64,000 nt of DNA from Mesoterricola silvestris (GTDB lineage Bacteria; Acidobacteriota; Holophagae; Holophagales; Holophagaceae). Positions 19,632 through 35,901 of the stretch are shown here, one piece after another (positions within the stretch are counted from its first letter, which is position 1; the number at the start of each line of letters is the position of its first letter). The notes beneath the pieces are model-generated. The model searched no databases. It was not told where the DNA came from and saw only the letters and a program-made list of their open reading frames with translations. The position numbers and the translations under genes are program-made. The stretch is from positions 372,001-436,000 of the forward strand of contig NZ_AP027080.1 in assembly GCF_030295405.1 (NCBI RefSeq), given 5' to 3'.

Positions 19632-19741
19632 ACCCAAGGCTGCGACCCACTCCAACTGCCACAATCGATGCCAATAGATACCTATTCCAGGAAACCCGTG
19701 GTCCGGCTCCTCGACCCGGAACGAGCTCAGTTCAACTTCGT

Positions 19742-19894
19742 ATCCCCTTCATCCCTTTCATCCGATTTGATCCCCGTTCCCGCAGGGCCAGAGCCGGGAT
19801 GGGTCGGCGCATGCAGATCAACGATGCGCCGCCCCATCTCATCCCCGGCCCTGCGGGAACAGGGATCAAATGGGATGAACAGGATGAAGGGGAT
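19742..19894. repeat. Long-hairpin dispersed repeat, copy 2
   Basis: A 153-bp imperfect palindrome whose 48-nt arms match at 44 positions and begin ATCCCCTTCATCC. The centre CGGGATGGGTCGGCGCATGC is nearly identical to the copy at 2088-2238. Where the arm sequence changes relative to that copy (GATTTGATCCC against GATTCATCCC), the partner arm changes with it, so pairing is kept. It ends 15 bp before the stop codon of the signal peptidase gene. Confidence 0.8.
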
Positions 19895-19909
19895 GAAGAG
19901 GGGATCACC

Positions 19910-23684: not shown

Positions 23685-23693
23685 ACGAAGGCC

Positions 23694-24115
23694 CGTGTCC
23701 CGGACGTACGCCCCGGTTCGCTGACGCAGGCAAGCTGCGTCAGCGGAGAGCTCACCGCCTTGGGTTCGGCGTGGGTGTTCGCACACGCCGGCACTGACGA
23801 GCCATTGGGAAGGCGGGAAGACGGGACTCCCCGGGAGGGCCTATGCCCGTTCGACCCGCTTCGAGTGCTCCCGGCCGATACCTGTTCCGCGCCGACGTTG
23901 ACCAGTCAGCGTCGGCGCGGATCCCTATCCTGCACGGCCCACTTGAAGCGCCCCCTTGGCCCCTAGGCCCCCGTGGGGAGCCCCTACCTTCCCCTTCGCC
24001 CCACCCCATCATCGAAGTCGGAGCGTGCGAACACCCCCGACGCCCCCCTGGTCGTGAGTTCTCCGTTGACGCAGCTTGTCTGCGTCAACGAACCGGGCCG
24101 CCCATCCGGGACACG
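23694..24115. repeat. Large inverted-repeat element with CAAG-loop hairpins
   Basis: Arms of 91 bp (23694-23784 and 24025-24115) match at 75 positions without gaps. Both begin CGTGTCCCGG and end GGTGTTCGCAC. Each arm carries a 27-nt hairpin: 23719-23745 (stem CGCTGACGCAG, loop GCAAG) and 24064-24090 (stem CGTTGACGCAG in the same orientation as its arm, loop CTTGT). The stem difference C to T is matched by G to A on the pairing side. The centre holds CCGCGCCGACG and its complement CGTCGGCGCGG, an 11-bp stem. There is no convincing gene inside. It fills the gap between two converging genes. Confidence 0.75.
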
Positions 24116-24128
24116 TGCGCCGAAAAAC

Positions 24129-33780: not shown

Positions 33781-34983
33781 ATGCCCGCATATGCTTGGAA
33801 AGGCAAGAATCGGCTCGGGGAGATTCAGGAAGGGGTCATCGTCGCCGAAACCCGGGACGGAGGCGCCGTCACGCTCAAGCGCAATGGCATCCAGGTCATC
33901 TCCATCAAGCCCCAGGGCGCCGCGGGCGGAAAGTCCCTGGGCAAGGTCAAGCCCAAGGAACTGGCCATCTTCACCCGGCAGTTCAGCGTCATGATCGACG
34001 CCGGCCTGCCCCTGGTGCAGTGCCTGGAAATCCTGGGTGCCCAGCAGGCCGACAAGGGTTTCCAGAAGATCCTCGCCGCCGTGCGCCGGGACGTGGAGCA
34101 GGGCGCCACGCTCCAGACGGCCCTCAGCAAGCACCCCAGGGCCTTCAACGATCTGTACGTGAACATGGTGGGCGCGGGCGAGGCCGGCGGCATCCTGGAC
34201 GTCATCCTCCAGCGCCTTTCCGGCTACATCGAGAAGGCCGTGAAGCTCACCGCCAAGGTGAAGGGCGCCATGACCTACCCCATCACCGTCATCATCATCG
34301 CCATCGTGGTGGTGGCCATCATCATGGTGAAGGTGATCCCGGTGTTCTCCCAGATGTATGAGGGCATGGGCAGCAGCCTGCCCTTCCCGACCCTCATCTG
34401 CATCGCCATCTCCAACGTGCTGATCAACTACTTCTACGTGGTGCTGATCTTCATCGCCCTGGTCTATATCGGCCTGCGGCAGTACTACAAGACGCCCGCG
34501 GGCCACCTGCAGATCGACACCATCATCCTGAAGATCCCCGTCATCGGCGAGCTGCTCCGCAAGGTGGCCGTGGCGCGGTTCTGCCGCACCCTGGGCACCC
34601 TGACCAGCTCGGGCGTGCCCATCCTGGAAGGCATGGACATCACCGCCCGCACCGCCGGGAACCTGGTGATCCAGAACGCCATCATGAAGAGCCGCGAGGC
34701 CGTGGAGCAGGGCCGCAACATCGCCGGGCCCCTGGCCGAGACCAAGGTCTTCCCGCCCATGGTGGTGCAGATGGTGGGCGTGGGCGAGGCCACCGGCGCC
34801 CTGGACGCCATGCTGAGCAAGGTCGCCGACTTCTACGAGGACGAGGTCGACAACGCCGTGGCCGCCATGACCGCCATGATGGAGCCCCTGATCATCGCCG
34901 TCCTGGGCGGCATCATCGGCTTCATCGTCATCGCCATGTATCTGCCCATCTTCAACCTCGCCAACGTCATGGGCAAGGATTGA
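33781..34983 (+). CDS. pilC: Type IV pilus inner-membrane platform protein
   Basis: 400 residues, two T2SSF domains. It starts MPAYAWKGKNRLGEIQEG, a typical PilC N-terminus. The first domain has IFTRQFSVMIDAGLPLVQCLEIL, the second FCRTLGTLTSSGVPILEGMDI and VGVGEATGALDAML. Three strong transmembrane segments are seen: ITVIIIAIVVVAIIMVKVIPVF, YVVLIFIALVYIGL, and IIAVLGGIIGFIVIAMYLPIF. It anchors PilB and PilT beneath the pilus. An 84-bp gap from pilT holds no clear terminator; AGAGG lies before the ATG. A large inverted repeat element follows. Confidence 0.94.
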   Translation: MPAYAWKGKNRLGEIQEGVIVAETRDGGAVTLKRNGIQVISIKPQGAAGGKSLGKVKPKELAIFTRQFSVMIDAGLPLVQCLEILGAQQADKGFQKILAAVRRDVEQGATLQTALSKHPRAFNDLYVNMVGAGEAGGILDVILQRLSGYIEKAVKLTAKVKGAMTYPITVIIIAIVVVAIIMVKVIPVFSQMYEGMGSSLPFPTLICIAISNVLINYFYVVLIFIALVYIGLRQYYKTPAGHLQIDTIILKIPVIGELLRKVAVARFCRTLGTLTSSGVPILEGMDITARTAGNLVIQNAIMKSREAVEQGRNIAGPLAETKVFPPMVVQMVGVGEATGALDAMLSKVADFYEDEVDNAVAAMTAMMEPLIIAVLGGIIGFIVIAMYLPIFNLANVMGKD

Positions 34984-35144
34984 GGAAGCGCCGGCGGGCG
35001 GGAGGTTCCGGACGGTTCCGGGACTTCCTGCCGGGGGCCGCGGATCTTCGCGCCCGGGTCCCGGAGTTCTGCGCCGACCCACAGGGGTTCCGTCCTTTCG
35101 CGCCGACCCATCGGTAGCGCTCGCAGGCAAGCTGCGAGCGCTTT

Positions 35145-35257
35145 GCGTGTCCAGGATGGGACAGGGTGAACGACGGCTGGGGGGACGCCGCTTTCCAATC
35201 ACTTGGGGGGGCGGGTGCGGGTCGGGCCTGGTTTGTTGGGCGGCCCGCAGCACCGGG
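35145..35257. repeat. 113-bp direct repeat, unit 1
   Basis: Begins GCGTGTCCAGGATGGGACAG and ends GCGGCCCGCAGCACCGGG. The unit at 35288-35400 is the same length and differs at only a few positions. It lies inside the composite element. Confidence 0.85.
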
Positions 35258-35287
35258 CGGCGCTCACAGCTCGCCTGTGATCGCTAT

Positions 35288-35400
35288 GCGTATCCAGGAT
35301 GGGACAGGGTGAACGACGGTTTTGGGGACGCCGCTTTCCAGTCACATGGGGGGGCGGGTGCGGGTCGGGCCTGGTTTGTTGAGCGGCCCGCAGCACCGGG
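35288..35400. repeat. 113-bp direct repeat, unit 2
   Basis: Begins GCGTATCCAGGATGGGACAG and ends GCGGCCCGCAGCACCGGG. It is separated from unit 1 by 30 bp that contain a hairpin with 9-nt arms and the loop CTCGC. Confidence 0.85.
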
Positions 35401-35556
35401 GGCCATCCGCAATGGATCACGGGCAGCGCTCGCAGCTTGCCTGCGAGCGCTACCGGTGGGTCGGCGCGAAAGGACGGAACCCCTGTGGGTCGGCGCCACC
35501 ATCCGGGACCCGCGCGTGACGATCCACGGCCCCCGGCAGGGCATGCCCCTTACCCT

Positions 35557-35901
35557 TCACCCCTCCCAGCGGCAGTCCTCGCACATCCGCCGGCCCTGAT
35601 ACGCGGCCATTGCGGCGCGATCGGTGCGCCGGGCGCGGATCCAGGTGAGGAAGGTCACCGCGCCCAGCGCCAGGAAGGTGGCGAGGACCGGGTAGGCGCG
35701 CTGGGGGGGGACGAAACCGGGGCTGAGGAAGGCCAGGAAGAAGAGGGTGATGCTGGCGGTGCCGTGGAAGATGGAGCGGCGCAGGGGGGGGGCCAGGGCG
35801 GCCAGGGCCTCGGGGTCGGATTCGGGGATCCGCACCTGGGCGGCGTAGTGTTCGGCGACGGCCACGACGTGGGATCCGCCGCAGGAGGGGCAGGCTTGCA
35901 T
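35557..35901 (-). CDS. Zinc-ribbon membrane protein, unknown
   Basis: 114 residues. An N-terminal CxxC (QACPSCGGSHV) and a C-terminal CEDCRW could jointly hold a zinc ion or lie on the same membrane face. Two hydrophobic spans in between: ASITLFFLAFLSPGFVP and YPVLATFLALGAVTFLTWI. No family name can be given. It starts where rsmB ends, and the two are probably co-transcribed. The 3' end lies 16 bp from the composite repeat element. Confidence 0.6.
   Translation of the reverse strand: MQACPSCGGSHVVAVAEHYAAQVRIPESDPEALAALAPPLRRSIFHGTASITLFFLAFLSPGFVPPQRAYPVLATFLALGAVTFLTWIRARRTDRAAMAAYQGRRMCEDCRWEG

Follow-up and report, generated by a model that had tools for sequence, protein, structure and literature searches.

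Most of what is known of REP-like repeats comes from Proteobacteria, where they are tied to RAYT transposases. In its account of such repeats, PMC3733652 describes REP units as GTAG-tagged, head-to-head dimers that lie downstream of genes and between convergent genes, and a tendency to sit at gene 3' ends and convergent junctions is reported both there and in PMC1525189. PMC3733652 also reports that the TIR repeats of TIRYT transposases occur also in Acidobacteria such as Koribacter and that REPtrons have been lost from some strains. Here, we describe much longer hairpin-bearing inverted pairs from an acidobacterial genus, probably Mesoterricola of the Holophagaceae, which fill a large share of the convergent junctions in one species. 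Two complete congeneric genomes lack them, which offers a natural test of how REP-like repeats spread; the family also tests concerted evolution of bacterial palindrome arms and the benefit of palindromes to convergent gene ends.

The element studied lies in the window, the whole 64,000-nt stretch of DNA that was analyzed, flanked on one side by the stop codon of a pilC-like gene (+ strand) and on the other by that of a small opposing gene (- strand). The pilC-like gene comes after pilB- and pilT-like genes and ends right at the element, and its closest named record in a search was the Holophagaceae MAG UBA692. The features of this junction, in window coordinates, are as follows.

33781-34983, + strand: pilC-like, encoding an inner-membrane protein of type IV pili (ORF and codon score; name from context and ortholog search)
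34988-35026, - strand: the left arm's outer end, immediately following the pilC stop; family consensus GGCGCCGGCGGTTTGGACGTTCCGGCC... (70-arm alignment including flanks)
35027-35142, - strand: left arm, hairpin inward and GGCCCCCGGCAGG tail outward (repeat and arm-profile searches)
35071-35083, - strand: motif TGTGGGTCGGCGC, the outer of two left-arm copies ~29 bp apart (sequence; family-conserved)
35100-35112, - strand: motif GATGGGTCGGCGC, the inner left-arm copy (sequence; family-conserved)
35114-35142, + strand: GTAG (35114-35117) and hairpin 1 (11-bp stem 35116-35126/35132-35142) (sequence; stem covaries over 53 arms)
35143-35255, + strand: inner direct repeat, copy 1 (105/113 identity with copy 2)
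35260-35285, + strand: middle hairpin, part of a 143-nt tandem unit (hairpin and direct repeat)
35286-35398, + strand: inner direct repeat, copy 2
35425-35453, + strand: hairpin 3 (stem 35425-35435/35441-35451) and CTAC (35450-35453), reverse complement of hairpin 1 and GTAG (sequence)
35425-35540, + strand: right arm (repeat and arm-profile searches)
35557-35901, - strand: small downstream gene, convergent with pilC (codon score; conserved in two complete genomes of the genus, G004 and G001)

The first-pass annotation had described a composite of inverted arms, near-identical direct repeats and three hairpins at 35027-35540, and this composition proved exact. The inverted arms (35027-35142 and 35425-35540) agree at 106 of 116 positions and the direct repeats at 105 of 113, and of the hairpins at 35116-35142, ~35260-35285, and 35425-35451, the outer two, which were said to be identical, are mutual reverse complements with a perfect 11-bp stem. 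A repeat search of the same element returned an inverted pair of 123 nt at 89% and a direct pair of 141 nt at 89%. Mechanical ORFs exist within 35027-35540 and none scores as coding by codon use, in line with the claim that no gene lies inside. What needs revision is the left boundary and the standing of the element as a lone structure: left-arm homology with the family extends outward to ~34988, just past the pilC stop codon, and the element is one of ~50 loci. The right arm of this copy is without the family's outer end (its outer ~40 nt are unmatched), and beyond it lies the neighboring gene's 3' end. Folded as single-stranded DNA, the element reaches -224 kcal/mol (z = -18 against dinucleotide shuffles), and its self-inverted alignment score is 158, compared to 18 for shuffles. 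The 143-nt tandem unit was found nowhere else, and this inner duplication appears private to the window copy.

Searching the element's own genome (G000; one contig of 4.99 Mb) by blastn gave 123 matches, all on the arms and edges and none on the middle apart from the self-match, so that the copy-number check proposed at first pass shows an element that is not single-copy. A profile built from both arms identified 71 arms among 40 sequences searched, and a covariance model (R1), for which calibrated E-values are rough, identified 85 arms at ~50 loci across the whole of this genome; we refer to these as family A. Genome-wide copies and presence in other genomes rule out a single-copy feature or an assembly artifact. 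A plasmid origin was rejected because no plasmid matched, and a phage origin because the sole viral contig matches just 26 nt of the profile.

Arms typically come as an inverted pair, within which the order is constant, with a minus-strand arm, a spacer and a plus-strand arm, hairpins pointing inward and 130- to 170-nt arms or tails outward; every one of 27 clean pairs is -/+. From inside to outside, an arm consists of GGATNACGGC, the hairpin (~26 to 38 nt), GCGCTACCGG, GTGGGTCGGCGC, a second GTGGGTCG ~29 nt further, GCGGCCCCCGGCAGGG, and then a fading outer end of ~40 nt with GGCCGGAACGTCCAAAC, the conserved unit amounting to 130 to 170 nt. The outer ends, GTTTGGACNTTCCGGCC, are conserved across the family, and GTAG in its strict form is present in 37 of 70 arms, including both outer hairpins of the window copy, with variants in the others. 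One subtype pairs two unlike hairpins across a short spacer of 62 to 88 nt, a second has near-identical hairpins and longer spacers, and a third has another hairpin, GCAGCGCAGCGAGGA; both outer hairpins of the window copy are identical. Copies are only ~65 to 80% identical to each other, and thus no recent burst is visible.

We consider it probable that the window element belongs to a genus-specific family of non-autonomous, REPIN/BIME-like mobile repeats that persist at convergent junctions and whose arms are locally homogenized. Family-A copies are dispersed over ~50 loci, are absent at the same junctions in a close relative, are concentrated between convergent genes, and show an excess of likeness between the two arms of a locus. 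REPINs and BIMEs (PMC3116915, PMC3733652, PMC8266576) resemble family A as dispersed intergenic hairpins in inverse pairs with a variable spacer, in having GTAG/CTAC on the hairpin's outer side (as do the window copy and about half of family-A arms), in their homo- and heterodimer subtypes, and in favoring gene 3' ends and junctions between convergent genes. They differ in that the REP unit measures 20 to 50 nt and the family-A unit 130 to 170 nt, in that family A has two GTGGGTCGGCGC motifs, a conserved outer end and a GTAG that is not universal, and in that the genome carrying it has no RAYT/Y1 transposase. The element most likely works like a REPIN, yet it is not filed as one. The TIR repeats of TIRYT transposases, likened here by description only, share with family A the longer inverted repeats, the phylum and, sometimes, dimer families, but they are linked to a tyrosine transposase that the family-A genome lacks. 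Miniature inverted-repeat elements (MITEs) are similarly short (under ~600 bp), non-coding and multicopy, with inverted-repeat ends and empty sites, whereas in family A neither a target-site duplication (at the one near-clean junction) nor a parent transposon (in the regions inspected) was seen, and most of the element is taken up by hairpin arms and conserved sequence.

The REPIN-like unit comprises two long inverse arms around a variable spacer; each arm has its GTAG-side hairpin facing the inside, a pair of GTGGGTCGGCGC motifs, and an outer end that is conserved. A trans-acting transposase that recognized the arms, possibly of the HUH/Y1 type and since lost from the lineage, may have made the copies, and these would survive mainly where two gene ends face each other, because insertion there would harm no promoter. 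Arms and hairpins would then stay alike because the inverted repeats recombine or undergo template switching with each other, which would also flip the inside. Counting against this reading are the lack of a Y1/RAYT gene in the genome, of a target-site duplication at the clearest empty site and of a visible recent burst, the restriction of strict GTAG to 37 of 70 arms, and a related arm at the pilC junction of another genus member, G003.

Four of six genus genomes contain family A, namely, G000, G002, G003, and G005, with 85, 14, 6, and 7 arms, respectively, where the last three values are lower bounds from fragmented assemblies. G001 and G004, both complete, contain no family-A arm, which argues against an essential role, including one as the nucleoid or recombination site that the first-pass annotation had listed as a possibility, and 296 other sampled genomes of the phylum gave 0 matches under stricter filters. 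The RAYT-type domain Y1_Tnp (PF01797) has no match in the family's own complete genome and, among the genus genomes, matches only in G003 and G004. The Y1 genes of G003 are accompanied by IS200-like hairpins (judged by eye) and no family-A arm lies nearby, and G004 has Y1 copies yet is without family A. A RAYT-mobilized REP in the strict sense is ruled out by the missing Y1 domain in G000 and by the IS200-like character and isolation from family-A arms of the G003 genes. No transposase was recognized near arms in 14 inspected regions (by gene calls, with translations read for one region), and no autonomous copy came to light: single arms are flanked by ordinary genes as judged by codon score, and no mobilizing gene was seen next to the single-arm loci inspected. 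Given that a REP family can outlive its transposase, as PMC3733652 indicates for REPs, a lost or unrelated mobilizer is the best inference. At one locus (L314:9370-12700; G000:C1 ~1514370-1517700), a family-A arm and terminator are duplicated ~3.1 kb apart and enclose an ORF of 854 aa, named by eye as an ABC-type permease, and no transposase.

Junction type could be classified for 49 family-A loci, of which 30 are convergent, 17 co-directional, and 2 divergent. The convergent background is 49 of 372 junctions (13%) in 456 kb of the same genome, based on a home-made codon-score gene caller rather than standard annotation (binomial p = 5e-15). Within the same 456 kb (G000:C1 1-456000), on which the density of all palindromes rests, 16 of the 19 convergent gaps of 120 to 900 bp contain a strong palindrome, compared to 3/7 and 1/4 in stretches from two relatives. 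Such a bias, together with this density, is what would be expected if the element were a host-maintained, bidirectional 3'-end element, with the transcripts of both genes entering an arm, the hairpin and long pairing of which would stop polymerase or protect the mRNA end and so insulate converging genes. We regard this explanation as unlikely. Past the arm hairpin comes GCGCTACCGG or GCGCTTGCCG without a T run, so that the U-tract of an intrinsic terminator is missing, 17 of 49 loci are co-directional, and close relatives keep several of the shared convergent junctions without the element (0 to 24 bp at some). An intrinsic terminator is predicted ahead of the arm at 9 of the 46 gene-side ends examined, all where the gap is longer (9/17), and transcription should therefore end before the arm there. 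In favor of insulation, no terminator is predicted at any of the 29 ends with a stop-to-arm gap of <60 nt, so some transcripts probably enter the element, which could then contribute secondarily to ending or protecting them; that role, too, we find doubtful. Across G000:C1 1-456000, the stop codon is TAG at 29 of 44 ends facing convergent gaps of >200 bp, compared to 117 of 373 for all genes; element ends possibly supply CTAG at stop codons, or target it.

Comparison with G004 provided the empty-site evidence for the REPIN-like mobile repeat, which rests mainly on this one genome pair and one near-clean case. At 789 kb in G000, an element of ~511 bp, complete with ends, occupies a position at which the shared intrinsic terminator and downstream sequence are 4 bp apart in G004; the insert follows the terminator and its ends coincide with family ends. 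Insertion is the simplest reading, with excision in G004 as the alternative. No target-site duplication was seen at this junction, where the flanks differ by a few bases, and the other junctions are too diverged to judge. At 107 kb, a 635-bp composite of family A and a further palindrome family, C, corresponds to 20 bp in G004. The pilC junction is occupied by gaps of ~84 bp in G001 and ~111 bp in G004 (where a GGTGGGTCGG stretch is retained), by other DNA that includes a Fic-like ORF in G005, and by a related arm in G003, the most diverged relative by pilC. Such varied contents at the same junctions imply that junctions are reused and turn over fast. The arm in G003 suggests that some of the positions could be ancient, with losses in other genomes. 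With many copies, presence or absence in close species, and the near-clean site that the first-pass annotation had proposed looking for, its suggestion of a non-autonomous mobile element is supported. In UBA692, ~1.4 kb with a Fic-like ORF replaces the palindrome at the pilC junction (L093:4203-5622), and G004 has a similar Fic-like ORF at another element junction (both ORFs named by eye).

The size of the copies (~400 to 570 bp), the near-clean insertion and the conserved outer ends, which form terminal inverted repeats, are also compatible with a classical MITE, with ends belonging to an unseen DDE transposon whose transposase would move the copies, and with hairpins that are incidental. This is quite improbable, however, given that a target-site duplication was not seen, that the inspected loci have no transposase among the arms or next to them, and that stems keep pairing while their sequence changes.

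The two arms of a locus resemble each other more than they resemble arms elsewhere. Mean arm identity is 0.764 within loci, compared to 0.638 between loci (27 pairs), and the maximum mean in 5,000 random pairings was 0.697; the partner arm is the single best match in 12 of the 27 pairs. Stems private to a locus, such as GATTTCGC/GCGAAATC, are present in both of its arms, and in the heterodimer subtype, arm likeness is no greater than average. G000 and G005 carry the hairpin types in opposite order at one orthologous locus (L066/L244), as expected if arm-arm recombination inverted the inside; inversion between terminal repeats is known for IS elements (PMC3004938). Both the identity excess and the swapped hairpins support the local gene conversion that the first-pass annotation had suggested. 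Arms that agree poorly across loci but well within a locus, the related arm at the same junction in the diverged G003, and orthologous arms with different yet paired hairpins could also reflect old quasi-palindromes in gene-free gaps, without selection and with little mobility now, kept symmetric by template-switch correction only and differing between species through losses, but homologous arms at ~50 unlinked loci require dispersal at some time and the 789-kb boundaries coincide with family ends, which makes this explanation highly improbable.

Stem pairing is kept through two-sided changes in 42 cells, compared to 10 in shuffles (53 arms), a covariation predicted both by selection on the hairpin and by mechanical quasi-palindrome correction. 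A structured RNA, another early suggestion, is not supported, as this covariation is also explained by palindrome correction at the DNA level, a predicted terminator precedes the arm at 9 of 46 ends, and the element has no Rfam match (at gathering thresholds, the whole window yields two tRNAs only).

Palindromes in this genome belong to at least three families, A, B, and C, which share modules: A and B the hairpin core CGCAGGCAAGCTGCG, and A and C GATGGGTCGGCGC. The additional copies in the window, and the family-C copies outside it, are listed below.

23691-24118, no strand: the "23.7-kb element," a family-B member between convergent genes, with the 15-mer hairpin core CGCAGGCAAGCTGCG common to A
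1979-2397 and 19632-19909 (G000:C1 373979-374397 and 391632-391909): family-C copies
G000:C1 72270, 106885, 122837, 146340, and 196820: more family-C copies

The first reading had envisaged one covariance model for the pilC-junction element and the 23.7-kb element, but R1 does not find the latter, which forms its own family with a related hairpin core. Family B consists of ~430-bp elements, palindromic from end to end with a central hairpin, at roughly 45 loci by blastn (further copies include G000:C1 244222-244673 and 1617135-1617565), and G004 has a shorter version at the same junction. A B-like clean empty site was observed at G000:C1 371964-372440, with 477 bp in G000 and 0 bp in G004, where GTAG directly abuts CTAC. 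Family C comprises palindromes between convergent genes, with CATCCCCTTCATCC arms and a GATGGGTCGGCGC core, and the stop codons flanking its copies often lie within CTAG. We tentatively raise the possibility that the module-sharing families A, B, and C together colonized the convergent junctions of one lineage without a HUH transposase, through an undescribed mobilizer targeting, or tolerated at, gene 3' ends, and were perhaps adopted as bidirectional insulators. A palindrome type with CGCTGGGGCGCTGAGG arms also occurs between convergent genes (G000:C1 92053-92357 and 247300-247683), and G001 has a similar type, CGCGGAGGCGCGGAGG.
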